From: a virus | Strand: one strand, 5' to 3' | Length of the DNA stretch: 25,206 bases | Virus record (IMG/VR): IMGVR_UViG_3300020214_000876 | Coordinates: 1-25,206 of that record | Part shown: positions 9,908 through 23,376 of the stretch, one piece after another | Position numbering within the stretch: the stretch's first letter is position 1 | Layout of the letters: every line of letters starts with the position of its first letter | Made by a program: the position numbers and the translations under genes | Notes under the pieces: model-generated | What the model saw: only the letters and a program-made list of their open reading frames with translations | What the model was told of the DNA's origin: nothing | Databases searched by the model: none

Positions 9908-10536
9908 AACTAGAAAAAATACAAAAAAATGTGAATAAACTAATTCCGACATGGATCGGAGAGAAACATATTCCCTCTTTGATTCGTAATTTAAATAAAC
10001 TCTTTAAAAAATCAATCGTATCTTTTTGTTCTGATAGATTCGAAGGCGAATACTATGCGAATCATTCTGTCATTATTTCGGGTCATTATTGCCCAAGAAT
10101 ACTCCCAGTAATTCCTGAAAATATATTGATCACTCTTTCTTTTCCAAAGAATCAAAAGAAAGCCATTATAACTCAAGAAGGTGCAGACAATTTAGCAATT
10201 AAGATTATTCGCGCCATTCATCACGAGTATCGCCACAAGCATCAACAAAAAGGTCGTGGGTATGTAAATACAAAACAATATCATACCAAGAAAGGTGAAC
10301 GCAATAGATTAAAATTGCATTATTATGGCAATCCTGATGAATTAGACGCTCATGCATACGAAACACAGGCTGAGAAACTAGATATAAATAAATTACGAAA
10401 GGCACATAGAATTGGATGGAAAGAATCAGAAGCCATCTTTATGTATCGTCTGCACTTTCGAAAAAGTGATCCCAGAATTTGGAAACGGTTCTTAAAGAAA
10501 GTATACAAAAATGCAAAACATATCGGGACAAACTAA
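9904..10536 (+). CDS. HExxH-motif protein, predicted zinc metallopeptidase-like
   Basis: 210 residues, very basic. A helix-like segment NLAIKIIRAIHHEYRHKHQ carries H107-E108-x-x-H111, the zinc-binding signature of gluzincin-type peptidases. Downstream, NPDELDAHAYE offers E146 and E153 as a third ligand; the spacing of about 40 residues and the PDElDAhA wording recall small phage and bacterial HExxH proteins of unknown substrate. No signal peptide is present, so it should act in the cytoplasm. It starts within the helicase stop (ATGA) and its 3' end overlaps the following gene by 26 nt. An exact late-type box, TATAAATA, lies inside it at 10383-10390. Enzymatic activity is inferred from the motif only. 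Confidence 0.72.
   Translation: MKLEKIQKNVNKLIPTWIGEKHIPSLIRNLNKLFKKSIVSFCSDRFEGEYYANHSVIISGHYCPRILPVIPENILITLSFPKNQKKAIITQEGADNLAIKIIRAIHHEYRHKHQQKGRGYVNTKQYHTKKGERNRLKLHYYGNPDELDAHAYETQAEKLDINKLRKAHRIGWKESEAIFMYRLHFRKSDPRIWKRFLKKVYKNAKHIGTN
10383..10390 (+). promoter_or_regulatory. Possible T4-type late promoter box inside a gene
   Basis: An exact TATAAATA, the T4 late promoter sequence recognised by gp55-RNA polymerase with gp33/gp45. It lies 120 bases upstream of ATG 10511 and within the HExxH gene, so it could give extra late expression of the downstream genes. In such AT-rich coding sequence one exact match is not strong evidence. Confidence 0.25.
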
Positions 10537-11425
10537 CGAACGAAATTTGGTGAATGCAATTAAAAAGTATGCACCATTTGAGATTACATTGAGCGGCAAA
10601 AAATATAAAATTACAAGCGCACGACAATTAGGTGGTAGAAATCCAGAACCAAAAGCCGACATTGCTCTTATCACAAAAGATAAAACTGAAATTGGAATCA
10701 GTATGAAGAAACCAAATTTCGGATTCTTCGAAAGTTGGATGAATGAAGAAAAAACATATAAAATGCTTGTGTCAGTTGGAATGGAACCAAAACAAGCAAA
10801 AGAAATTGTTAAAGGCTTAAAAGATAAAGCGGCAGAAATGTCTCAATCTCGTGCATTTAAGAATGAAGTGATGAATGAATACAATGCTATGATTGAATTG
10901 GTGGGTAAGGGTAGCAAAATTGATTCGATTGCCAGAAAAAATAATAAGTTTGTTGTTGAAAACTTTAGTGTCACAGGAGAAGTCAAGAGTGATATTGTAA
11001 ATAAGTTACTTAAAGATAAACAAAAAAGATTTGGAACGGCATCGATCTCATCTTCATTTAAAGTAGAAAATATATACATACCTTTGAATGAGTTGCTTGG
11101 TAGAAATTATGAGAAATTTTTGCAAAATGTTATTGGTGGTGGAATCGATAATCCAGTCAAAGCTGAATATGTAATTGTTGGCACTATTAGTTCAGTAATT
11201 AAAGAAAAAGATTTAATTTCATTACTTCAGAGCGCCAAAACAATAAAAGAGGTTGTGAAAGAGTATTCAAATGATCCTAATGTAAATTTAAAATTTAGAT
11301 TAAGACCTATTACTGCAACTCGAGCAGCATATTCTACTACGAATGCTGGTAAGTATAGAAAGGGTGCAGAGTTCTATTTCGACGAAAAAATTGGAGTGAG
11401 TTGGACTGTTCATGTAGCGAATTGA
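10511..11425 (+). CDS. Phage protein, probable PD-(D/E)XK nuclease fold
   Basis: 304 residues. The N-terminal part shows the order expected for a PD-(D/E)XK nuclease: a helix with an acidic residue (E10, NERNLVNAIKKY), then a strand with D50 (PEPKADIALI), then a strand ending in S64-M-K66-K67 (IGISMKKP), where Ser stands in the usual Glu/Asp position, as in phage families with an SLK motif. The remaining 230 residues are mixed helix and strand with no motif I recognise, ending in KIGVSWTVHVAN. It starts 26 nt inside the preceding gene and is followed after 7 nt by rmlB. It could cleave DNA or act in recombination; the fold assignment is inferred from sparse motifs. Confidence 0.6.
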   Translation: MQNISGQTNERNLVNAIKKYAPFEITLSGKKYKITSARQLGGRNPEPKADIALITKDKTEIGISMKKPNFGFFESWMNEEKTYKMLVSVGMEPKQAKEIVKGLKDKAAEMSQSRAFKNEVMNEYNAMIELVGKGSKIDSIARKNNKFVVENFSVTGEVKSDIVNKLLKDKQKRFGTASISSSFKVENIYIPLNELLGRNYEKFLQNVIGGGIDNPVKAEYVIVGTISSVIKEKDLISLLQSAKTIKEVVKEYSNDPNVNLKFRLRPITATRAAYSTTNAGKYRKGAEFYFDEKIGVSWTVHVAN

Positions 11426-11432
11426 GGTTTTT

Positions 11433-12380
11433 ATGACTACATTTGTGACTGGTGGTTTGGGATTTATCGGATCTAATTTTGTATTCGCCCACTTAAAAAA
11501 ATATCCCGCTGATACTGTCGTTATCATCGACAATTATTCATACGCTGCTGATGAAAAGAATATCTATGGTCTTTTTGAAGATTATAGAGTCATTGTCAAG
11601 CGTTGCGACATTCGAAATCTTGTTTTACTCGATCAACTTTATCATGACTATGAACCAGAAATTACTTTTCATTTTGCGGCTGAGTCTCATGTTGACAATT
11701 CTATTGCTGGTGACGATCACTTCCTCAGCACTAATATTAATGGCACTCACAACATTCTAAAGTGTATTCGCAAACATAACGGCAAATTAGTTCATGTTTC
11801 GACTGACGAAGTTTATGGATCACTCTCTCATGATGATCCACCTTTTACCGAAAAAACTCCATACGATCCACGCAATCCATACTCTGCATCTAAAGCAGCG
11901 AGTGATCATCTTGTTCGTGCCTATGTGAATACACATGGCATTGATGCAGTCGTAACTAATTGTTCGAATAACTACGGTCCTCGACAGCATAAAGAAAAAT
12001 TTATTCCAACCATAATTCGAAATATTCAAATGAATACACCAGTTCCAGTATATGGAAATGGTCAAAATATTCGCGACTGGTTGTTTGTTGAAGATCATTG
12101 TGATGCATTGTTAACAATTGGTGAAAACTTTAAATCGGGTGAGCGTTATAATATTGGTGGCGGTCATGAGATGAGTAATCTTGATATGGTTACTTTGATT
12201 CTTGACATTATAGGAAAACCAGTTCATATGTATCAAAACTGGATTAATTTTGTAACAGACCGTAAAGGTCATGATTTTAGATACGCAATGAATTCGTCAA
12301 AACTTGAACGAGAACTCGGATGGAAAGCAAAAACTAACATCACAGAGGGACTTCGTAAAACATTGGAGTGGTACAAATGA
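11433..12380 (+). CDS. rmlB: dTDP-glucose 4,6-dehydratase (RmlB-like)
   Basis: Extended short-chain dehydrogenase that converts dTDP-glucose to dTDP-4-keto-6-deoxyglucose with bound NAD. The N-terminal dinucleotide motif is GGLGFIG (residues 7-13). The dehydratase signature STDEVYG contains T124-D125-E126, and the catalytic Tyr/Lys pair is Y150 and K154 (NPYSASKAASDH). Further family blocks are NCSNNYGPRQHKEKFIP and GNGQNIRDWLFVEDHC, typical of RmlB. At 315 residues it is slightly short, but all active-site elements are present. GAGG at 11424-11427 serves as ribosome site. The gene is joined to rmlA by an ATGA overlap, so the two successive steps of the pathway are made together. Confidence 0.94.
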   Translation: MTTFVTGGLGFIGSNFVFAHLKKYPADTVVIIDNYSYAADEKNIYGLFEDYRVIVKRCDIRNLVLLDQLYHDYEPEITFHFAAESHVDNSIAGDDHFLSTNINGTHNILKCIRKHNGKLVHVSTDEVYGSLSHDDPPFTEKTPYDPRNPYSASKAASDHLVRAYVNTHGIDAVVTNCSNNYGPRQHKEKFIPTIIRNIQMNTPVPVYGNGQNIRDWLFVEDHCDALLTIGENFKSGERYNIGGGHEMSNLDMVTLILDIIGKPVHMYQNWINFVTDRKGHDFRYAMNSSKLERELGWKAKTNITEGLRKTLEWYK

Positions 12381-13252
12381 GAAAAGGAATTATATTATCT
12401 GGTGGATTAGGTACACGTTTATATCCATGCACTGAGGTTATATCTAAACAATTGCTTCCTGTTTATGATAAGCCTCTCGTCTATTATCCATTATCTACAC
12501 TAATGATGGCTAGTATTCGTGACATTATGATTATTAATTCTCCGAATGACAGCGATCAGTTTCAGAGATTATTGGGGAATGGTTCACAGTATGGATTAAA
12601 CATTACATATTCTGTACAACATGAACCGAAAGGTATCGCTGAGTGTTTTCGTATCGCAGATAAATGGATTGGCAAGAGTGATGTTGCGTTAATTCTTGGC
12701 GATAACATTTTTTATGGTAACGATTTAATTAATCGATTTAATTATGCAAACTGGAATAGAAATGGATGCACGCTCTTCGCGTATCATGTAAATGATCCTG
12801 AGCGTTTCGGTGTCATTGAATTCGATAAAAATAATGATCCTATTGATGTTCATGAAAAGCCTGTAAATCCGCCAAGCAATTATGCAGTAACTGGTTTATA
12901 TTTTTATGATAATAAAGTTGTCGATTATTCGTATGCGATCAAACCTTCTGCTCGTGGTGAATTAGAAATTACTGATATTAATAAAATGTTTATTAAAAAT
13001 AGTGATTGCAAAATTGAGTTTTTAAATCGTGGTGTTGCTTGGATTGATACAGGCACATTCGATTCACTTTCTGAAGCGTCAATATTCGTTGGATCAGTTC
13101 AGCGGAGAACTGGTACGATGATTGCATGCCCAGAAGAAATTGCTTACAAGAATGCTTGGATTACAAAAAATCAAGTTGAGGTGCAAGCAAGTAAATATGC
13201 TAAGTCGGATTATGGTAAGTATTTGTCAAGAATTTTACAAACGAGGATATAA
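12377..13252 (+). CDS. rmlA: Glucose-1-phosphate thymidylyltransferase (RmlA-like)
   Basis: Makes dTDP-glucose from glucose-1-phosphate and dTTP, the entry step of dTDP-deoxysugar synthesis. The signature is GGLGTRLYP (residues 9-17), followed by SKQLLPVYDKPLVYYPL, QHEPKGIAECF and LILGDNIFYG with the metal-binding Asp; NRGVAWIDTGTFDSL is also typical. Its 291 residues equal the usual family length when starting at ATG 12377, preceded by GGAG at 12365-12368. A GTG at 12368 would add three residues but lies upstream of the good spacing. The start overlaps the rmlB stop (ATGA). In a T4-like phage using host glucose-1-phosphate, this would divert dTTP to sugar activation. Confidence 0.94.
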   Translation: MRKGIILSGGLGTRLYPCTEVISKQLLPVYDKPLVYYPLSTLMMASIRDIMIINSPNDSDQFQRLLGNGSQYGLNITYSVQHEPKGIAECFRIADKWIGKSDVALILGDNIFYGNDLINRFNYANWNRNGCTLFAYHVNDPERFGVIEFDKNNDPIDVHEKPVNPPSNYAVTGLYFYDNKVVDYSYAIKPSARGELEITDINKMFIKNSDCKIEFLNRGVAWIDTGTFDSLSEASIFVGSVQRRTGTMIACPEEIAYKNAWITKNQVEVQASKYAKSDYGKYLSRILQTRI

Positions 13253-13254
13253 TT

Positions 13255-14058
13255 ATGCATTTTCTAGTAGTTGGTCGAGGTTGGACAGGTAAAAAGGTAT
13301 TCAACGAACTTCTTAGTCGTGGGAATGTGGTTACTTTCTCCTCTCATGAGGAAGCGATTACAACGATTGAGGACAATTCGTTCGATTGGGTTGTGAACTG
13401 CGCTGGTAAAACAGGATTCCCGAATGTTGATGCATGTGAACAAGACAAGAGGGGTACTGTCGAGGCGAATGCTGTTTTCCCAGCATTGTTAGCGGATGCA
13501 TGTGAGAAAAAAATCTCTACTCGCCTAGCGCATTTCTCCAGTGGGTGCATTTATATGGGCGATATTCACGATGTAAATGCAGCACCAAACTATTTTGGTA
13601 GCATTTATTCCGTATCAAAGGGTGTATCAGATCTATACTTGGGCGACAAAGCACAGGTTTATCGCATTCGTATGCCATTTACTGGGATTAATGAGTCTAA
13701 AAATTATCTCACAAAGGTCTATAACTATGCTCGAAACGGTAAGTTAATCGACGCTGGTGAGAACTCATTAACAGACTTAAACGAGGCAGTAACTGTTGCC
13801 TGTAACCTTATGGAAGACGGCGAACCAAATGGATATTATAATCTTGTAAATAAAGGTTCGGTGAATATGCACGAACTTGCTGAGATTATGGGTATTCAAC
13901 CGCAATGGTTTACGCCAGAAGAGTTTAAGGCTGCAACTGCCGCTGGACGTTCTACCTGCACCATTCCTGCATATGAAGGTATGTCGAATGTTAAGGACGC
14001 TCTATCGGACGCTATTCGTAACATGGATTGGCAAAGATACGCAATCGCAAACGAATAA
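13255..14058 (+). CDS. NAD(P)-dependent reductase/epimerase, RmlD-like
   Basis: 267-residue extended short-chain dehydrogenase. The N-terminus FLVVGRGWTGKKVFNEL is a Rossmann glycine motif in variant form (GRGWTGK). WVVNCAGKTGFPNVDACE and the later NAVFPALLADAC match the RmlD/epimerase layout. FSSGCIYMG provides the catalytic Ser region and Y118-SVS-K122 the Tyr/Lys pair. In the dTDP-rhamnose pathway RmlD reduces the 4-keto group after RmlC epimerises C3 and C5. No rmlC is seen here, so this enzyme may reduce the unepimerised 4-keto-6-deoxyglucose, giving a D-fucose- or quinovose-type product, unless host RmlC or a gene outside the window helps. It follows rmlA by 2 nt and has GAGG at 13243-13246. 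Confidence 0.82.
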   Translation: MHFLVVGRGWTGKKVFNELLSRGNVVTFSSHEEAITTIEDNSFDWVVNCAGKTGFPNVDACEQDKRGTVEANAVFPALLADACEKKISTRLAHFSSGCIYMGDIHDVNAAPNYFGSIYSVSKGVSDLYLGDKAQVYRIRMPFTGINESKNYLTKVYNYARNGKLIDAGENSLTDLNEAVTVACNLMEDGEPNGYYNLVNKGSVNMHELAEIMGIQPQWFTPEEFKAATAAGRSTCTIPAYEGMSNVKDALSDAIRNMDWQRYAIANE

Positions 14059-14098: not shown

Positions 14099-15232
14099 AT
14101 GTTTGGGTTCAAACAATTTGTTCCGTTAACGGAACAAAAGCAAAAGAAAGTCGTTCGCGGAATACAGCACCTACCCCATCCTGCTGAATCAGCATTCGCG
14201 TCTAGGCGTGGTGCGATTGGATCAGCTCTCTCCAAAATCTCCAGCGTTGTAAGCGGACGCGCTCCTGTAACTAAAAAAGTTGATGATAGCATGTCCTTTC
14301 AAGTCGATGAGAAAGGTGGCGTAAAATATAAAGGTCCAGGTGCAAAATATAACTATTCAGTAGAAGATATTAAAAGGCAATATGCAAATAAACCATATAT
14401 TGCTCAAAAACTTATTGCTATCTTTAATCATATCGGCAAAGTTCTTCCAAAAGGTCGTGGCGAGTATCAGGGTGGATATCTAAGTTCTGATAATGAGCGC
14501 GAAGAAAAAGATGGTAAAATTAGTCATAGACCAAATACGATTCGCTATTCAGTAGATCGAAACTCTCCTGAGGGAAAAAGAATTGCACGATCTCGTGTAA
14601 GTATAGTTCTTCACTCTCGAATTCTTAAAAACGGAAGCACAACACCAATCGGTGAAGGTGAGTTAGAAGAACATCCTGATGTACATGTAATGAGTCATAT
14701 AGTCTCTGCCAGAGAAAGAAATCTTTCTCCGAAAGAAAAAACAAGAATTGCGCAGCAAATTTCTTCTGCTAGAAAACTCGGAAAAAATCATTCATATGAA
14801 CATTTAGATGGGCATAATGAAACTCTTCTTCGATATGCGAATTCCTCTGTTGATACGAATGAGCGACTCTCTGCCAAAGGATATAAGCGATTTCTTCAAA
14901 GATATCATCAAAAAAGAATTGATTCAGTAAAAACAGAAAAAGCGAAAGCACAAAAGAATGCAGAGATGCAAGCTGCACTCGATCATGTTGATAGAAATGA
15001 AGATAATTTTAATAAAACATTTAACATTTATCGTAATATTCAACAAGCGACCTACACTGTAGCGAATTCGTTATCTCGCAGCGCGAGTGGTGGATACGAT
15101 CATGATATTGATGGACAAGAATCTAGCGGAGAGGGATTCGTTTCTGGCAATATGAAGTTCGTTCCGAGAGCATTTACACAAGCCAATCGTCGTCGTTCGG
15201 CGGTACTCAAGGCTCAGAAGAGTGTAATATGA
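14099..15232 (+). CDS. DUF6267-like phage protein, possible internal head protein
   Basis: 377 residues. RGIQHLPHPAESAF, SGRAPVTKKVDDSMSF and HRPNTIRYSVDRNSPEGKRIARSRVSIVLHS follow, from memory, the DUF6267 family common in T4-like marine phages, where the segment after PVT often reads KxDG as in nucleotidyltransferase/ligase folds. Here it is K-V-D-D, so ligase chemistry is doubtful. The first residues, MFGFKQFVPLTEQ, resemble a T4 capsid targeting peptide, with L10-T-E12 as a possible maturation protease site. The C-terminus is basic with RRRSAVLKAQK. The gene has GGAG at 14090-14093, a late-like box at 14063, and an ATGA overlap with the next gene. The function is not known. Confidence 0.75.
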   Translation: MFGFKQFVPLTEQKQKKVVRGIQHLPHPAESAFASRRGAIGSALSKISSVVSGRAPVTKKVDDSMSFQVDEKGGVKYKGPGAKYNYSVEDIKRQYANKPYIAQKLIAIFNHIGKVLPKGRGEYQGGYLSSDNEREEKDGKISHRPNTIRYSVDRNSPEGKRIARSRVSIVLHSRILKNGSTTPIGEGELEEHPDVHVMSHIVSARERNLSPKEKTRIAQQISSARKLGKNHSYEHLDGHNETLLRYANSSVDTNERLSAKGYKRFLQRYHQKRIDSVKTEKAKAQKNAEMQAALDHVDRNEDNFNKTFNIYRNIQQATYTVANSLSRSASGGYDHDIDGQESSGEGFVSGNMKFVPRAFTQANRRRSAVLKAQKSVI

Positions 15233-17826
15233 GTAAAGCAACATTTACATTCGGAAGATTCAATGTTCCAACTGAAAATGGGCATGGAAAACTTATCTCG
15301 AGAGTTCAAGCACATGCTGAAGAATCTGGTGGTTCTCACTATATCTTCCCATCTCACTCTCAAGATAACAAGAAAAATCCATTGAGTCATGGTGAGAAAG
15401 TCGGCTTTATGCGTCGTTTATTCCCGAGTGCAAATATTGTTTCCTCTGGTAGAGTGCGAACAGCAATTGATGCGATGAAGCATTTAGAAAAGAAAGGACA
15501 TACTCATGTAACTATGGTTGTCGGTTCTGATCGTGTCTCAGAATTTAGCTCTCTTCTAAATAAATATAGAAAAAAAGAGTTTCCAGGAATTAAAAAAGTT
15601 AGTGTTGTTTCCGCAGGGCAACGAGATCCAGATGCAGAGGGCGCCGAAGGCGAATCAGCATCAAAACATCGAGCAATGATCACTAATGGACAACGCAATA
15701 AGTTTATTTCAAAATACAGTGATCGTAAATTAGGTGCTGCTATACATGATGCGGCAAAAAAAGGTATGCAAATGGAATACACAAACCCAATCGGAATTTT
15801 TCTACTCGGTGGTCCAGGAAGCGGAAAAGATTATGTTCTTACGAACATTTTTTCTCGCTTTAATTTGACTGAAGTTCAATTAGATCAAGTGCTTAATGGA
15901 AAAATACAAGAGTTAATTGAGTTAAATCAGAACATCGTGATAAATGGTGCTGCAGACATTGAAAAAGTGGAACTTGTCAAGAACATTCTTGAGGGATATA
16001 CATTCGATACAGTATATGTTTCTGTGTCAAATAAAATTAGTCGTGCGCGTAATCAAGAAAGAGAAAATCCATTACCAGAAAATAAGCGTTTAGAAAAATG
16101 GTATCGCGCTGAGAAACTTGCAGAGGAACTTGATTGTTTTATATTTAATAATTCAATTAATCTTTCTGAATCGAGTCAAATGGAGCAAATTGTATTCGGC
16201 AGTCAAATTGAAAAATTACTTGAACGCCTTACATCAAATGGATTGCTTTTATCTGAGAAAACATTTAAATCAGTTCCGATGGACAAAGATTCAGGCTTAC
16301 CTAAAAAATATGTCTCTGGATTAAGTACGTCAACAGCATTAGCACGTAAAGCACATTGGAAAAGGAAATCAAAACTCTCAGATAGTGATCCAAGAGCATA
16401 CGAACCAGCTCCTGGTGATGCAAATGCTAAAACAAAACCAAGTAGGCACACACTTGCTGTTCGTAAGATGATGGATGAATCAGAACAGATTGATGAGGGT
16501 GGACCAGGTTTATGGGCAAACATTCATGCCAAAAGACAAAGAATTAAACGTGGTTCTGGTGAAAGAATGCGTAAGGTGGGCGATAAGGGTGCGCCAACAC
16601 CAGAACAGTTGAAGTCTGCTAAAAATGAAGAAATACAAGAGTTTGATGAGGCACAAAAGAAACTTCGTCCATCGCGCTGGAGAGCAGAGTGGCGTTTAGG
16701 CACACAATCTGAAGTTGACAAAAATAACAAAAAGATTTATGATCGCCTTGCAAAAACTGATCCAGATAAAGCCAAAGCATTCCACGATAATCTCATGAAA
16801 CTTCGTAAAGAAGAACTCGATCAAATTGATGATATAAATTCTTTATTTGAAATGCAATTAGCTGGCACTGATGAATATCGTAAACATGCGATTGCCATGA
16901 CGCCAGGACAAGGAGAGATTGGTAATGTTAATAAGTCTAATAAATCTAATAAAAATGAAGAACATAAGGACTGCGGAACAACAGATTGTTGCGGAGAATG
17001 TGAGTCGGTTGGAGAAGCAGTTAGAGAAGATTCTGAATCGATCATCGACGCGACGCCGACGCTCGATACAGAAACAAAAAAGCGAAAAAGATCACAAATA
17101 GTTCCACCAAATTCTCGTGACATTGCAAAAGATGGTCCCGCAGTTATTACAACAGGCGCTTATGTTCGCGAAGCAGCGAAACCTCTTAAATCGTTTATGA
17201 AAACACCACGCCAACTTCCTGGTCCTCCTGGAGGACATTCAGTTCCTCCAGGATATGAGCGCGTGAAGTCTTGGGGTGGTGCTTATGAACTTCGTAAGAT
17301 TAAAGAAAAACCAACCACTGTAAAAGAAGCAGTAGAATATCATATCGAAAATCAAGTTTCGTTTACAGATAATATCTTTCGTCCAGGATCTGATATGTTT
17401 TTTAAAATAATTGAGGAAGCGAAAAAACTCTACGCAGAGGGCAAGTACACACCCGCTGATGAGTATGAACAAGACATGCTTAACTCGAACATCGGCGAAA
17501 AAGCAACTTACAACGATCAGGAAGTAATTCTCGATTATCCATTCGAAGAAGAACTAAACGAAGCTGATGATCCAACAGATGGCAAAGGTATCGGTAAACC
17601 ATTTCGCTCTGGCGGTGGTGGTGCAGTTTATGTTCGTGTTGGAGATGGCGTGCGCAAAATCAACTTCAGTCAATCTGGTATGCAGAAAAAGTATATGGAC
17701 CCAGGTGCAACTCGTAGTTTTGTCGCTCGTCATCATTGTTTAACGAATAAAGATAAGACGAGCGCATCCTATTGGGCATGCCGTTGGCCAAGATTTTTTA
17801 GCAATTCGGGTAAAATATGGTGGTAA
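15229..17826 (+). CDS. Multi-module fusion: nucleotidylyltransferase-like + P-loop kinase-like + internal-protein modules
   Basis: 865 residues. Residues 1-185 form a cytidylyltransferase/NMNAT-like domain: FGRFNVPTENGHGKLI stands for the T/HxGH motif, with one residue more than the usual PTxGH spacing, and SASKHR for the C-terminal ISxTxxR motif. Residues 190-330 are a P-loop domain with GGPGSGKD (194-201), like phage nucleotide kinases. The rest is a chain of small modules: a basic stretch after EQIDE423; a charged segment after FDE474; a Cys-rich patch (C582, C587, C588, C591); a VKEAVEYHIENQVSF module; and after LNE778 a final module GKPFRSGGGG...RSFVARHHC...SASYWACRW. Several module borders carry I/L-x-E motifs like those cut by T4 prohead protease gp21. 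It may be processed and packaged in the head; substrates are unknown. Confidence 0.78.
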   Translation: MSKATFTFGRFNVPTENGHGKLISRVQAHAEESGGSHYIFPSHSQDNKKNPLSHGEKVGFMRRLFPSANIVSSGRVRTAIDAMKHLEKKGHTHVTMVVGSDRVSEFSSLLNKYRKKEFPGIKKVSVVSAGQRDPDAEGAEGESASKHRAMITNGQRNKFISKYSDRKLGAAIHDAAKKGMQMEYTNPIGIFLLGGPGSGKDYVLTNIFSRFNLTEVQLDQVLNGKIQELIELNQNIVINGAADIEKVELVKNILEGYTFDTVYVSVSNKISRARNQERENPLPENKRLEKWYRAEKLAEELDCFIFNNSINLSESSQMEQIVFGSQIEKLLERLTSNGLLLSEKTFKSVPMDKDSGLPKKYVSGLSTSTALARKAHWKRKSKLSDSDPRAYEPAPGDANAKTKPSRHTLAVRKMMDESEQIDEGGPGLWANIHAKRQRIKRGSGERMRKVGDKGAPTPEQLKSAKNEEIQEFDEAQKKLRPSRWRAEWRLGTQSEVDKNNKKIYDRLAKTDPDKAKAFHDNLMKLRKEELDQIDDINSLFEMQLAGTDEYRKHAIAMTPGQGEIGNVNKSNKSNKNEEHKDCGTTDCCGECESVGEAVREDSESIIDATPTLDTETKKRKRSQIVPPNSRDIAKDGPAVITTGAYVREAAKPLKSFMKTPRQLPGPPGGHSVPPGYERVKSWGGAYELRKIKEKPTTVKEAVEYHIENQVSFTDNIFRPGSDMFFKIIEEAKKLYAEGKYTPADEYEQDMLNSNIGEKATYNDQEVILDYPFEEELNEADDPTDGKGIGKPFRSGGGGAVYVRVGDGVRKINFSQSGMQKKYMDPGATRSFVARHHCLTNKDKTSASYWACRWPRFFSNSGKIWW
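16930..16956 (+). repeat. Short in-frame 9-base tandem repeat
   Basis: Three near-identical 9-base units (AATAAGTCT, AATAAATCT, AATAAAAAT) encode Asn-Lys-Ser, Asn-Lys-Ser, Asn-Lys-Asn in the linker before the Cys-rich patch of the fusion protein. The look is that of replication slippage in a flexible linker. Confidence 0.6.
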
Positions 17827-18108: not shown

Positions 18109-20670
18109 ATGGCAGAGGTAAAGATTCCATCAAAATTGCATTTGATGTCGCCATCATTTCAAAAGAAATGGTACAAAAAACACGGTATGGAAATGCCAAC
18201 TGCATCAAAAGAGAAAGAGCCAGAGGGTAAATCAGCTGCTGCAGCAAAACGTATAAAAGTTGCGTCAAGAAAAAATGTTAATGTTAAGCCAAATTCTGTT
18301 CGTGCGATTAATGTTGCTCGTCAAAAAGCCTATATGGATAAAGGTGGACGTCCGCCAATCGGAGCAATGGGTTCTGATGGTAGCAATGTAATGGCTGGTG
18401 CTGGTCAATCTACGATTAGAGATTTAAGAGCCAGCATTAAAGCAGGATTTAATCCAAAAGTTTCTCTCGATCCATATCAATCAAAAAGAGCAAAGAAAAC
18501 AAAAAATGAATCTGTTGATGAAGCAGCGAAACCAGATGCTTCAATGGCGATGACGAATCAATTAAAAATGAAAATGATCTCTGATAAAGATAAGAGAACA
18601 CTTGGTAAGGTTGCTGTGCTTATGGCACGTGAACGCGCACTTACTGCTCAAAGAAACAAAGATAAAAAGAATGCATATGTTCGTGGACTAGGATTAAATG
18701 CAATGAGGGCTGGTAATGTAGATCCAGCAAGAGGTCATAGTCCAACTCGTTTTGGTCGCGAAGTGTTGGCAAAAGAAGAAGTCGAGCAGATTGATGAGAA
18801 AATTAATCTCGTCAAAGCCAAAATGGGCGATGTTATCAAAGACTTCCAAAAATCTGATGCTCCACAATTCAAGGGTAAGTCAGCAGAAGAACGTCGTAAG
18901 ATGGCGCTTGCTGCTAAACTCGGCGCAGAAAGAGAAGCAGGAATGCGCGAAGAAGTCGAGCAGATTGATGAACTTTCTCCAAAAACTGCACAAAGTTATC
19001 TTGACAAACGTCCGCATCCAAAAGTTTCAGATATTGCTCGTCCTGATGGTATGACAAGAGACCAAGCTGTAAATAGAATAATTAGTCGTGCACGTGCAAA
19101 AAGAATAATTAGGGTTGCAAACTTAAAACAAAATCCAAGCCCACCTCCTAAATCAACTGAAGTAGATGATAACCCATACGGATATGGGCAAGGTCGGTAT
19201 ATGGGAGACAATGTAAACCTAGAGGGTCAAACGATGAATGAAGTTACAAAAAAAGAAGCCGAAGAAATACTCGGCGGTCCAGTCAAAAACAAACCAAAGG
19301 GTCCAGCAGGTAAACATCCTCTTGGTTATAGACTTGCAAGAAGTGCTGCTCGTAAAGCAATGAACAATATGCAAGCATCGATGAAGAAAGAAGAGGTCGA
19401 GCAGATTGATGAATCAGGTGAAACATCTTTGAAACTATCTCAATTAGCAAAACAAAAAGCAACTGACTTAGAAAGATATCCATCAAAAGATGGAAGCCTT
19501 GGAAAACTCAGAAAAAATCCAGATAAACAAAAAATAAGAAGATTGCGCGATTTGGCAAACAAAGCATACGCAAGATCAAGAAATCCTACTGGTGCGCCAA
19601 CTGGTAATATCGAAGGTGGTGGGCATAAAAGTCTTCGTCGACAAGGAGCCACTGATAAAGATATTCCACCAAACCCAATGAACATGAGCAAATTAATGGG
19701 ATATTTTAAAGAAGAAGTCGAGCAGGTGGATGAGGCTGGCAAGGGATATGGTCCAGGTTGGATGCTAAAACATCCAGATGGTAAAACTCTTGATGCTAAA
19801 TTAAAAGCAAAAAAAGAACTCGAAAGAAAACGACAAAAATCATACGGCGATCCGAAAGCTGGTGTCTCTGTTAAATCAGAAGAAGTCGAGCAGGTGGATG
19901 AAGTGACTGGATATGAGGGAGTAAAAAATCGCACAGATATAATTAAAAGAGCAGCCGCAATGAATAGAATGGGCAAACAAACATTTCTTGATAGAGTAAA
20001 GACACGTGCTGCTGAAATACGAAAAGAAAAGGCAAAAAAGAAACTTGCAAATGAAGAAGTCGAGCAGATTGATGAACTCAAGAAGTCTACACTTGCTTCT
20101 TATGTTAAGAGAGCAACACGCGATGTAGCATCAGCAAGTCGACTTCAAAGAGGTTATGAAACGGATGCAGCCAGAAAAGGTGATGCAGCAAATTATGTTG
20201 CAAGGGGTAGTGATTTAGCAGCAAAAACAATGAGAAAATTTGCTGGTAAAAGATCTAGAGGCATTGCAAAGGCTGTTGATAAATTAGCAAAAGAAGAAGT
20301 CGAGCAGATTGAAGAAGGTAAAGCAGATACATCACTTGCTGCAAAGGCACAAAAGTCTGGTATTTCATTGGGAACACTTAAATCAGTATTTCGTCGTGGA
20401 GTTGCTGCATGGAATTCAGGACATCGTCCAGGAACAACTCCATCACAATGGGGTCATGCTCGTGTAAATTCTTACATCAACAAGGGTAAGACTTATCACA
20501 CCGCAGATAAAGATCTACGCGAAGAAAAAGCCAAAGGTAAAGATCCAGAAACATCAACCGAAGTTGAACTCGCCAAGAAGCATGGTGATCCAAAAAAGAT
20601 CACATACGGTGATGTTATCAAAGCGCGTATCGAAGCATCTAAAAAGAAAGCATTAAATAAGGGCGAGTAA
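18109..20670 (+). CDS. Modular internal-protein polyprotein candidate with seven EEVEQ[IV][DE]E linkers
   Basis: 853 residues, very basic between acidic linkers. Seven copies of EEVEQ(I/V)(D/E)E end at residues 230, 288, 435, 542, 598, 656 and 736, dividing the protein into pieces of about 230, 58, 147, 107, 56, 58, 80 and 117 residues. The I-D-E/I-E-E (or V-D-E) endings fit the T4 gp21 prohead protease rule I/L-x-E. Pieces I recognise from other marine T4-like phages as separate or differently joined modules include INLVKAKMGDVIKDFQKSDA (231-288), GKGYGPGWMLK (543-598), LKKSTLASYVKRA (657-736) and the C-terminal SGHRPGTTPSQWGHARVNSYI domain (DUF5824-like). No enzyme motif is visible. It probably supplies several small DNA-binding or scaffold-core proteins to the head; cleavage is inferred. 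Confidence 0.8.
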   Translation: MAEVKIPSKLHLMSPSFQKKWYKKHGMEMPTASKEKEPEGKSAAAAKRIKVASRKNVNVKPNSVRAINVARQKAYMDKGGRPPIGAMGSDGSNVMAGAGQSTIRDLRASIKAGFNPKVSLDPYQSKRAKKTKNESVDEAAKPDASMAMTNQLKMKMISDKDKRTLGKVAVLMARERALTAQRNKDKKNAYVRGLGLNAMRAGNVDPARGHSPTRFGREVLAKEEVEQIDEKINLVKAKMGDVIKDFQKSDAPQFKGKSAEERRKMALAAKLGAEREAGMREEVEQIDELSPKTAQSYLDKRPHPKVSDIARPDGMTRDQAVNRIISRARAKRIIRVANLKQNPSPPPKSTEVDDNPYGYGQGRYMGDNVNLEGQTMNEVTKKEAEEILGGPVKNKPKGPAGKHPLGYRLARSAARKAMNNMQASMKKEEVEQIDESGETSLKLSQLAKQKATDLERYPSKDGSLGKLRKNPDKQKIRRLRDLANKAYARSRNPTGAPTGNIEGGGHKSLRRQGATDKDIPPNPMNMSKLMGYFKEEVEQVDEAGKGYGPGWMLKHPDGKTLDAKLKAKKELERKRQKSYGDPKAGVSVKSEEVEQVDEVTGYEGVKNRTDIIKRAAAMNRMGKQTFLDRVKTRAAEIRKEKAKKKLANEEVEQIDELKKSTLASYVKRATRDVASASRLQRGYETDAARKGDAANYVARGSDLAAKTMRKFAGKRSRGIAKAVDKLAKEEVEQIEEGKADTSLAAKAQKSGISLGTLKSVFRRGVAAWNSGHRPGTTPSQWGHARVNSYINKGKTYHTADKDLREEKAKGKDPETSTEVELAKKHGDPKKITYGDVIKARIEASKKKALNKGE
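18775..20316 (+). repeat. Seven dispersed 24-base direct repeats encoding EEVEQ[IV][DE]E
   Basis: Copies at 18775-18798, 18949-18972, 19390-19413, 19711-19734, 19879-19902, 20053-20076 and 20293-20316. The core AGAAGTCGAGCAG is identical in six copies; the third has a single A-to-G change (AGAGGTCGAGCAG). The last bases vary between ATTGATGA, GTGGATGA and ATTGAAGA. All are in frame with unequal spacing (58 to 147 codons), so this is a coding repeat, not a CRISPR. The fixed use of the GTC, GAG and CAG codons is unlike the A/T-ending codons favoured around them. Confidence 0.9.
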
Positions 20671-20671
20671 T

Positions 20672-21097
20672 ATGGCAGAGAAAGATTCAGGCGAATACGA
20701 TTACGAAGGCGACATGGCAATGTCGCAACTTAAAAGTATTATTACAAACGCCAAAAAACTGCATGATATGTTAGAACCGAATGCGAACTTACCCGAGTGG
20801 GTTCAAAGCAAAATTACTCTTGCCGAAGACTACGTTGTAACTGCAGCAAATTATATGGAGAGTGAAATGAATGAAGAAATGAAACCATACGTGAAAGCAG
20901 TGCAGCAAAAGTTTGACGCTCAAGCAAAAGCGCAGAAAATGGGCAAGAAACAGGCAGGAACATTATCTGCAAAGAAAGAACGTGAACAAGAAAAAGGTGC
21001 AGCCATTGCTCAGAAAACGATTGATATTGTCAAGGGCAAAAAAAATAAAATTAATGTAAAGCCAGAATTAGCAGGTGAGAAAGATGCAAACCTTTAA
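20672..21097 (+). CDS. Conserved marine T4-like phage module protein (YEGDMAxSQL family)
   Basis: 141 residues. SGEYDYEGDMAMSQLKSI, then LEPNANLPEWVQSKITLAEDYV and YMESEMNEE are strongly patterned and I recognise them from many T4-like marine phages, where this helical module is sometimes free-standing and sometimes fused inside long internal-protein genes like the one before it. The last 55 residues are lysine- and glutamine-rich (AKAQKMGKKQAGTLSAKKERE) and likely disordered. Function unknown; its neighbours suggest a head-internal or assembly role. It begins one base after the polyprotein stop and overlaps the next gene by 14 nt. Confidence 0.8.
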   Translation: MAEKDSGEYDYEGDMAMSQLKSIITNAKKLHDMLEPNANLPEWVQSKITLAEDYVVTAANYMESEMNEEMKPYVKAVQQKFDAQAKAQKMGKKQAGTLSAKKEREQEKGAAIAQKTIDIVKGKKNKINVKPELAGEKDANL

Positions 21098-21542
21098 TGA
21101 GTTTTTAAACGAAGCATTTGATGAGACTATTCAAATTGATTCTCGCTATCTAGAAGAGAATATGAATACAATCAATAATGAACTTGATGCATTGACGGAA
21201 AAACCATATCAAAATGCGCCGATCTTTTTAAATCAACTTCGCGGTGTTACAGAGAAATATGGTTTTCCATTACCACAATCTGCAACGAATAATTTTCTTG
21301 ATTTAGGCGCTGAACTAGTTTATATGTTAGGCGAGTCGCCATATCATCTTTATGTGGTTTACGACACCAGCGATGACGGACTTGTTGATGGCTATGCACA
21401 AATCGTTACTAATGAAGAGTTAGAAGATTTATTGAATATGGATTCGGATGAACTCCTCGGAGATCGCGATCCAATGCCAATTCGTCACAGCGATAACTAT
21501 CGTAAACGCGATGATGATGCGGGCAACACTGATGAATATTAA
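21084..21542 (+). CDS. Putative internal head protein with T4-type capsid targeting sequence
   Basis: 152 residues from ATG 21084; a GTG at 21075 would add three residues but would spoil the N-terminal motif. The start MQTFNEFLNE-A matches position by position the T4 internal protein III targeting peptide MKTYQEFIAE-A, which directs proteins into the prohead core and is removed by gp21 after I/L-x-E. The predicted cut here is after L8-N9-E10. The mature part has an acidic helical body (NNELDALTE, LEDLLNMDSDELLGDRD) and a strand pair PYHLYVVYDTSDDGLVDGYAQIV; no known domain is recognised. AGGTGAG lies just upstream as ribosome site. The gene overlaps the previous one by 14 nt. Confidence 0.78.
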   Translation: MQTFNEFLNEAFDETIQIDSRYLEENMNTINNELDALTEKPYQNAPIFLNQLRGVTEKYGFPLPQSATNNFLDLGAELVYMLGESPYHLYVVYDTSDDGLVDGYAQIVTNEELEDLLNMDSDELLGDRDPMPIRHSDNYRKRDDDAGNTDEY

Positions 21543-21545
21543 TTT

Positions 21546-21935
21546 ATGCTTTTTAATGAGTTGAATGAGAACAATATTTTATTATATGCAGCTAAATGCT
21601 ATGATAAACCTAATTGTATACAAAGTGAGTTCGATGAGGATTTTAAAACATTTCGATATATTAAACGATTGTTACATCGATATCGTTTGACTGGAGAGAT
21701 AAAAGAACGATTATTATTAAATCATTTAATACTATGTCAGAATGTATTTGGAGTAGAAGGCAGTACAAGAATATTATTTTTTCGTATAAATGAAAAGGAT
21801 TATAGTGCGCTCAAAACATTTCTTATATATACGTCAGCAATGCCAAGTATTGTCAGAGGTGTTCGTGAAACAAACATTATCTCAAGTGATATTCCAGTAG
21901 ACTTACATTTAATGGAAATATTGCGAAATTTATAG
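21546..21935 (+). CDS. Conserved T4-like phage small helical protein
   Basis: 129 residues. MLFNELNENNILLYAAKCYDKPNC, then FKTFRYIKRLLHRYRLTGEIKERLLLNHLI and CQNVFGVEGSTRILFF form a pattern that, from memory, is shared by a widespread small protein of T4-like phages (FxYIKRLLxRYxxxGxLxERLLLNHLI). It is mainly helical with a basic patch; no catalytic residues are apparent and I know of no assigned function. The ATG follows the upstream stop by 3 nt. The 49-nt gap after it (21936-21984) holds no promoter or hairpin that I can support. Confidence 0.78.
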   Translation: MLFNELNENNILLYAAKCYDKPNCIQSEFDEDFKTFRYIKRLLHRYRLTGEIKERLLLNHLILCQNVFGVEGSTRILFFRINEKDYSALKTFLIYTSAMPSIVRGVRETNIISSDIPVDLHLMEILRNL

Positions 21936-21984: not shown

Positions 21985-23049
21985 ATGTCAATTATTTTAA
22001 CATTTAAACAAAAAATGGAAGAGTCTAAAGCGCTCGATAAGATTATTGAGACATTGGATCTTGAAGTTTTATCTGAAGAAGTTTCTCCTAAAGGTAAAGT
22101 TCCGAACAACACCAAAGGTGTTATGCATGAATTGTTAGTTGGCTATCATTTGAACAATGGTCAGCATATGGACAAGTATAAGAACGAAGAAGGCGAAAGT
22201 CCAGAACAAGCCCATGACCGTTTAAAGAAAACTATCCATAAAGATGACTACAAAAAAATTCACGATAGAGCCAAAAGCGCTGCTGAAGACATTCGTAAGC
22301 AAGCTGAAACCAGAGGTCATAAAATTTCTACAATTCACTGGACTTCGAAACCAGGCGACTTGAAGACATCAACAGGTATTGAAGCATCGCAAAAACAAGA
22401 CGCATCAGATATCGTATTACACACGCACCACTCGGCAGATAAGGCAAAGAAAAAGCCAAGATTTATGGGTGTGAGTTTAAAAGTCACAGATCAGTCTACT
22501 AAACATGTTCCTTCATCAAGTTTGGGAATAGAGTCTTTAGGTCCAAAGGCAAAGAAAACATTCGACGATCACAGAAAAGGTATTCTTTCAGCCCATCCTA
22601 AACTCCAGAAAATGAGCAATAAGAAAGACAGAAAAGAATGGCTTAAAGGTGACGAAATAGCAAAAGCAGATATTAAGAAAAGAAATAGTGCAACTCTAGT
22701 TAAAGTTGCCAAAGATTTATCAGATCATTTAAATAATGCGCACCACACAGAACTAGTCGGTCACATTAGAAAAGTTGTTCATGCTCACATAACTCCAATG
22801 CAAGATAAAGGTCACGAGCACATTAAACATATTACTTATGGTGAAAATGCAACTAAACACCATACGGTAAATCCTGGCGCTGACTACGAACATATTTTAA
22901 GAGATCACAAAAACATCACAGTTCATCACAGTGGAACAGGCGTATCATTTAAACATAAAGGTAAAACTTTTGCTAATCACACTATTAAATTCAACAGCCA
23001 AAAAGATCCATTAAGTTCATTAAAAAGTAAAGGTGTTACTGCTGGATAA
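21985..23049 (+). CDS. Predicted PD-(D/E)XK-type nuclease, possibly head-packaged
   Basis: 354 residues. The core has the expected order: E49 in a helix (KGVMHELLVGYHLN), a strand with D142 (QDASDIVLHTH), and a strand ending S164-L-K166 (FMGVSLKVTD), the SLK variant of the PD-(D/E)XK motif common in phage nuclease-like proteins. A histidine-rich second half follows (HTELVGHIRKVVHAHITP, HEHIKHITYG). The N-terminus, MSIILTFKQKMEES followed by VLSEEV, is hydrophobic then charged, with possible x-x-E maturation sites after residues 12 and 31, so capsid targeting is conceivable but weaker than for the gene at 21084. Nuclease activity, target and packaging are inferences; an ATG at 22015 is an alternative start. 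Confidence 0.68.
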   Translation: MSIILTFKQKMEESKALDKIIETLDLEVLSEEVSPKGKVPNNTKGVMHELLVGYHLNNGQHMDKYKNEEGESPEQAHDRLKKTIHKDDYKKIHDRAKSAAEDIRKQAETRGHKISTIHWTSKPGDLKTSTGIEASQKQDASDIVLHTHHSADKAKKKPRFMGVSLKVTDQSTKHVPSSSLGIESLGPKAKKTFDDHRKGILSAHPKLQKMSNKKDRKEWLKGDEIAKADIKKRNSATLVKVAKDLSDHLNNAHHTELVGHIRKVVHAHITPMQDKGHEHIKHITYGENATKHHTVNPGADYEHILRDHKNITVHHSGTGVSFKHKGKTFANHTIKFNSQKDPLSSLKSKGVTAG

Positions 23050-23052
23050 TTA

Positions 23053-23376
23053 ATGAAAAAATTTAAAACCCTAAAAGAAGAAATTATAAACACAGCAAGT
23101 GGTGCAAATATTTCTGGTTTGCCGCCAACAGATCCACCAGTTTCTAAAAAACATAATCCAATTTTGTTTGCTGGTAAAAGAGTTTTTAAGGTATCAAGTA
23201 ATGCATTTAATAAAGCAAAACTTGGTAAGATGTATAGAAAGCATTATAAGACTTACGTCGAAGGCGATATTGGAGAAGAAATCAGACAATACGCCAAAGA
23301 GAATCCTGATGCACCGATTATTGTTGAAGATGAATTGACGGGTGCAATGGTTTATTTAAGATACGGAAAGAGGTAA
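23053..23376 (+). CDS. Small conserved phage protein of the internal-protein type
   Basis: 107 residues. NTASGANISGLPPTDPPVSKK, GKRVFKVSSNAFNKAKLGKMYRKHYKTYV and EEIRQYAKENPDAPIIVEDELTGAMVYLRYG form a pattern I recognise from small proteins and fused modules of T4-like marine phages (AxLxGxPPxxPPV...GAMVYLxYG). The first residues, MKKFKTLKEEI, have an aromatic residue at position 4 and L7-K-E9, a shortened version of the F-x-x-F/L-x-E targeting pattern. Function is unknown; the company of targeting-like neighbours suggests a head-internal protein. It starts 3 nt after the nuclease-like gene. Confidence 0.78.
   Translation: MKKFKTLKEEIINTASGANISGLPPTDPPVSKKHNPILFAGKRVFKVSSNAFNKAKLGKMYRKHYKTYVEGDIGEEIRQYAKENPDAPIIVEDELTGAMVYLRYGKR

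Follow-up and report, generated by a model that had tools for sequence, protein, structure and literature searches.

A putative T4-type capsid targeting sequence on a conserved acidic protein of aquatic T4-like phages

Does a small protein of an uncultured freshwater phage carry the N-terminal signal that takes internal proteins into the head of T4? Capsid targeting sequences (CTSs) are known from T-even coliphages. The window analyzed here is a virus fragment of 25,206 bases without head genes; its DNA polymerase is 51–53% identical to cyanophage polymerases, and judged on this enzyme the genome is T4-like. The gene in question, P0001, comprises 152 codons, from an ATG at 21084 to a stop codon ending at 21542, and encodes the product MQTFNEFLNEAFDETIQIDSRYLEEN, the N-terminus of which reads MQTFNEFLNE-A. 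The open reading frame put forward in the original prediction was confirmed: the ATG is the start in 27/27 distinct homologues, which makes an in-frame GTG upstream (21075) an unlikely start for P0001. The features of the gene are as follows.

21084..21542, + strand: P0001, 152-aa protein with a putative CTS; ORF and ATG kept in 27 distinct homologues from 45 IMG/VR loci
21084..21113, + strand: putative CTS, P0001 residues 1–10 (MQTFNEFLNE); F4, F/Y7, L/I8 and E10 in 27/27 homologues; AF2 pLDDT below 50 for residues 1–13
21113..21114, + strand: predicted gp21-type cut after L8-N9-E10; the gp21 motif L/I-x-E (PMC9026906) is kept in 27/27 homologues

The T4 genes ipII and ipIII (NC_000866) both open with MKTYQEFIAEA. 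P0001 is identical to their products at M1, T3, E6, F7, E10 and A11 (6/11), and shows conservative changes at two further positions (Y4 to F and I8 to L). According to mutagenesis of T4 IPIII, residues 4 and 7 are the main determinants of targeting, residues 8 and 10 govern processing, and gp21 cleaves after L/I-x-E (PMC9026906). All four mapped positions match in P0001. The earlier description of the match as near-exact is generous for the eleven residues as a whole. A cut after E10 would leave residues 11–152 as the predicted mature protein. T4 gene 61.1 (NC_000866 18966–19130), annotated as hypothetical, opens with MKTFKEFIKED, which is also a canonical CTS.

We collected homologues from IMG/VR, which comprise 45 loci and 27 distinct proteins with 50–85% identity to P0001. 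Position 4 is F and position 10 is E in all 27; position 7 is occupied by F (19) or Y (8), position 8 by L (15) or I (12), and L/I-x-E is present at positions 8–10 throughout. Positions 2, 3, 5, 6, 9 and 11 drift. The least variable of residues 2–11 are positions 4, 10, 7 and 8, an outcome with a chance of 1 in 210 if the order were random. Since T3, E6 and A11 vary among the homologues, they should not be counted as evidence for the tag. In particular, A11 had been proposed as part of the signal, but alanine, although present in the window, occupies this position in only 7 of the 27 homologues (Q occurs in 8, E in 6, S in 3, and D and M in 1 each), and the published gp21 motif L/I-x-E makes no demand for it. 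Because Q or E is common at a position that is A in T4 IPII and IPIII, the efficiency of P0001 cleavage is uncertain. Residues 12–29 are the most variable part of the family, and the conserved domain starts behind them (mean entropy 1.70 vs 0.77 for residues 30–110); the body contains 36 invariant positions. A variable stretch ahead of a conserved domain is as expected if the N-terminus is a detachable propeptide.

The specificity of the motif was assessed with the strict pattern M..[FY]..[FY][LIV].E, which was applied to the starts of ORFs and also to their internal methionines; the ORF calling was mechanical, and some starts may have been missed or misplaced. Among the 28 ORFs of the window there is one match, compared with 0.000 expected from shuffling. 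In T4, three ORF starts match: ipII, ipIII and 61.1. The search for further copies of the pattern suggested in the original prediction proved productive in relatives: three long IMG/VR records, G017 (197 kb), G018 (173 kb) and G019 (126 kb), each encode a P0001 homologue and contain 5, 4 and 5 tagged starts, where shuffling of the N-termini predicts 0.05, 0.06 and 0.03. No match to the strict pattern was found at ~11,000 internal methionine positions across 15 phage records, or among the 499 ORFs of T5, N4 and SPO1, three phages that gave no PF03420 match. HTVC008M and phiM19 both have gp21 yet show no match to the strict pattern, and the signal is thus not universal. Judged by these sequence comparisons, P0001 bears a real tag, and its resemblance to that of T4 is no coincidence.

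A tag of this kind would need a protease. PF03420, the gp21-family protease, is present in all three long P0001-carrying records (E 2.6e-31 to 4.7e-34), as is PF07068 (gp23, the major head protein). A search for gp21 and gp23 in the 16 first contigs gave no match because these contigs are fragments. The gp23 proteins of the clade have an L-W-E site (NLWEA or NLWES) ahead of the mature domain, consistent with the same protease specificity.

A link to virions comes from marine cyanophages. The single strict match among 230 ORFs of S-SM1 is SSM1_190 (MKKFSAFLNEA), which belongs to T4-GC190, and the single strict match among 266 ORFs of S-SM2 is SSM2_161 (MKSFFQFLSEA), also annotated as T4-GC190. 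This protein, a putative cytidylyltransferase, was detected by mass spectrometry in purified S-SM1 virions (Sullivan et al. 2010, PMC3037559). Its tag in other cyanophages reads MKSFSQFLTET, VKSFGQFLTEA, MKKFSAFLTEA or MKKFSDFLTEA. The S-SM1 match falls on a virion-detected protein, and the motif thus has predictive value for virion proteins beyond T-even phages. The assignment of a T4-type CTS to P0001 is upheld by the conservation of the positions mapped by mutagenesis, the presence of gp21 and gp23 in the long records and the same motif on the S-SM1 virion protein. Together with the restriction of the pattern to gene starts, these results lend good support to packaging of P0001 and removal of its tag by gp21.

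The surroundings of the gene are conserved on its downstream side.

20672..21097, + strand: 141-aa gene overlapping the P0001 start by 14 nt; directly upstream in 18/46 loci
21546..21935, + strand: DUF7207 / phrog_407 gene, obligate downstream neighbor; Pfam E 7.5e-34

The DUF7207 gene lies 4–73 nt downstream of the P0001 homologue in 45/45 loci. The setting is an accessory cluster between DNA replication and endolysin-type genes, away from gp20–gp23. The N-terminus of the DUF7207 protein itself, MLFNELNE, is tag-like and was discounted, since it opens a domain that cyanophages conserve as well. In Methylophilales phages, the gene directly upstream of DUF7207 opens with MKNFKNHIAE, MKNFSKYITE or MKNFSKFIKE; in these counterparts F4 and E10 are invariant, position 8 is I or V and position 7 is often H. 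The gene in the same place in HTVC008M, gp139, has a degenerate tag, MKSFKDFQNVNE. Profile comparison of the P0001 family with the Melnitz_27 family yields P 1.9e-5 when the tag is included and 0.0019 when it is left off, and common descent of the two bodies is possible but unproven.

Mature P0001 has a pI of 4.05 and a net charge of -22 over 142 residues, and the mature pI ranges from 4.05 to 4.29 across the homologues. No homologue was found in 50,697 GenBank phage records, comparison with INPHARED, Pfam and PHROG gave no family match of note, and a profile of the 27 homologues has no convincing match in the T4 genome. The AF2 model is of moderate quality (mean pLDDT 67.9, pTM 0.58); it places a folded domain behind residues 1–13, which have pLDDT below 50 and include a helix drawn at 4–11. 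The predicted architecture comprises a flexible tag, a pair of long helices and a sheet of three strands. Neither Foldseek against PDB (nothing at E<=0.001) nor VIA-align (no Z>=5) matched the model to a solved structure, and the function of P0001 is therefore not read from structure; a negative outcome of this kind carries no weight in either direction. Matches in BFVD are uncharacterized freshwater phage proteins. A weak Foldseek match (E 5.5e-3) to part of a 1134-aa phage 'anti-CBASS Acb1' protein may lie outside the Acb1 domain and was not relied upon.

Several other genes of the window are candidates for packaged cargo.

14099..15232, + strand: DUF6267 protein whose N-terminus, MFGFKQFVPLTEQ, is a CTS-like variant; Pfam E 7.7e-34
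15229..17826, + strand: cytidylyltransferase-domain protein; phrog_3041 E 6.5e-49
18109..20670, + strand: 853-aa protein, candidate packaged polyprotein; C-terminal part DUF5824, E 5.3e-15
21985..23049, + strand: 354-aa protein with a degenerate CTS, MSIILTFKQKMEE; canonical in a relative (MFKFKQYIEEA)
23053..23376, + strand: 107-aa protein with a degenerate CTS, MKKFKTLKEE; canonical in relatives (MKTFKEFLSEEAPA, MKKFKEYIKEDAPA)

The N-termini of 30 homologues of the DUF6267 protein include canonical tags in close relatives (MLQFSAFLTEA, MFSFSSFLTES). A tagged 351-aa protein of the clade is 28% identical to its window homologue at 21985–23049, and a tagged 121-aa clade protein has its window homologue at 23053–23376. 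The protein encoded at 15229..17826, of which T4-GC190 is a distant relative, contains two to three acidic L/I/F-x-E/D linkers. In the same protein, a weak P-loop kinase-like segment is joined to the cytidylyltransferase domain, and the acidic linkers are short and resemble those of the next gene. The 853-aa protein encoded by that gene consists of segments of pI 8.2–10.3 between seven EEVEQ[IV][DE]E repeats, each of which includes I/V-x-E; relatives have 3 to 5 copies. This suggests a polyprotein cut in the head at acidic gp21-like sites. Tentatively, aquatic T4-like phages could keep a dedicated cluster of virion cargo to which P0001 belongs: several unrelated proteins would share its CTS, and at least one large neighbor (18109–20670) would be a packaged polyprotein whose EEVEQ[IV]DE linkers join basic segments and are cut in the head by the gp21-type protease; we consider this wider arrangement rather unlikely. 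If true, one gene (18109–20670) would deliver many basic peptides into the host along with the acidic P0001.

Tagged genes of the clade also include recognizable enzymes. An ADP-ribosyltransferase (PF03496, E 1.8e-14) with the tag MKSFKEFLFEE is encoded at G017:170264-171049 (L125:10264-11049), in a record that carries a P0001 homologue, and a HAD/polynucleotide-kinase-like phosphatase (phrog_415, E 1.6e-10) opens with MKKFLDFITES. The tagged phosphatase genes at G017:95895-96542 and G018:27372-28037 stand directly behind TATAAATA, the T4-type late promoter. In the long records this promoter shows a strand bias (10 vs 1, 9 vs 2 and 13 vs 3), and its frequency in the window is not above chance. 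At G019:75262-81783 (L139/L140), three large CTS-tagged paralogues (821, 819 and 525 aa) stand in tandem and adjoin gp23; the 821-aa paralogue contains HEAT repeats. In the small proteins at G018:156919-157284, G017:37910-38275 and window 23053-23376, the residues that follow the tag, APANAMGAAGISS...GFDP, are similar to those of gp23 just past its likely cleavage site. By eye, the window proteins at 10511-11425 and 21985-23049 share KADIAL/ASDIVL...GISMK/GVSLK, reminiscent of PD-(D/E)xK nucleases, with no profile match. Three consecutive genes of dTDP-sugar/nucleotide-sugar type (epimerase/dehydratase, nucleotidyltransferase and reductase-like) were recognized by eye from the translations at 11433-14058.

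In our reading, P0001 is very probably one of the proteins inside the head of a T4-type phage, packaged by its CTS, cut by a gp21-type protease, retained in the head and most probably injected. Residues 1–10 would bind the forming prohead core and bring the protein inside, and the phage's gp21-type protease would cut after L-N-E10 as the head matures. The acidic domain of 142 residues would then remain in the head, most probably enter the host alongside the DNA and act at the very start of infection, perhaps as a conserved factor in takeover or in protection. The parts of this reading differ in strength: packaging is highly probable, a cut at E10 is, if the protein is packaged, marginally more probable still, and ejection of a packaged P0001 is likely.

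The main rival is a pure head-assembly role, with P0001 as a CTS-packaged core or morphogenesis protein, comparable to gp67/gp68 or to IPIII in a structural role, and not an injected effector. The conservation of the body, with its 36 invariant positions, suits assembly better than an arms race, the same partner gene is found in 45/45 loci, and IPIII itself accelerates head assembly (PMC9026906). However, the P0001 gene is located in an accessory cluster and not with gp20–gp23. Moreover, gp22, gp67 and gp68 of the T4 core are cleaved into several pieces, whereas a single N-terminal gp21-type site is the pattern of a retained protein. Such a role is possible, and we hold it to be unlikely. Conservation bears in the opposite direction on the idea that P0001 is injected to counter restriction or other defenses, possibly as a DNA mimic by charge. 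The strongly acidic mature protein (pI 4.05–4.29 in all homologues) fits a DNA mimic, the weak Foldseek match to the 'Acb1' protein (possibly outside the Acb1 domain) could be read in the same direction, and all of T4 IPI–III inhibit GmrSD restriction enzymes (PMC12373910). Yet P0001 matches no anti-defense protein in sequence or among solved structures, and it is conserved and not fast-changing, which speaks against a rapid arms race such as that of IPI–III. T-even internal proteins differ between phages, and IPII and IPIII are basic; the restriction-blocking role raised in the original prediction finds little favor with an acidic, well-conserved protein, and we regard it as doubtful.

The remaining explanation, that an ordinary amphipathic helix of a soluble early protein resembles the tag by coincidence, could appeal to the shortness of the motif and to the AF2 helix at 4–11. 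It is very improbable, given that the pattern is missing from the ~11,000 internal methionines and from the three phages without a gp21 match, that conservation is limited to the functional positions, and that the matches in T4 and S-SM1 land on proven virion proteins.

A CTS on P0001 has implications beyond this gene. Across marine cyanophages, methylophages and uncultured freshwater phages, the CTS appears to keep its functional positions, and its 10-residue pattern may offer a way to predict which uncharacterized proteins reach the hosts of these abundant viruses. It already picks out a cyanophage virion protein, an ADP-ribosyltransferase and a phosphatase-like enzyme, a shortlist for virion proteomics. 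In the literature searched, we found no paper reporting CTS-tagged cargo for aquatic T4-like phages.

P0001 resembles T4 IPII and IPIII in its N-terminal tag of 10 residues, with aromatics at 4 and 7, an aliphatic residue at 8 and E10, and the phages of its clade encode gp21 and gp23 as T4 does. It differs from these proteins in its unrelated body, in the acidity of the mature form (pI 4.05 compared with 9.56 and 9.65), and in its conservation across the clade with DUF7207 as a fixed neighbor. The family of Melnitz_27 and HTVC008M gp139 occupies, in Methylophilales and Pelagibacter phages, the same gene position upstream of DUF7207, and its members in Methylophilales phages have the same tag; unlike P0001, this family is without the PYQNAPIF core. 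T4-GC190 of S-SM1 and S-SM2 bears the same tag on an unrelated body with an enzyme domain. T4 Alt is an injected ADP-ribosyltransferase; P0001 differs from it in having no ADP-ribosyltransferase match, and the parallel with Alt is provided by the P0001-carrying relative G017, which encodes an ADP-ribosyltransferase with a CTS tag.
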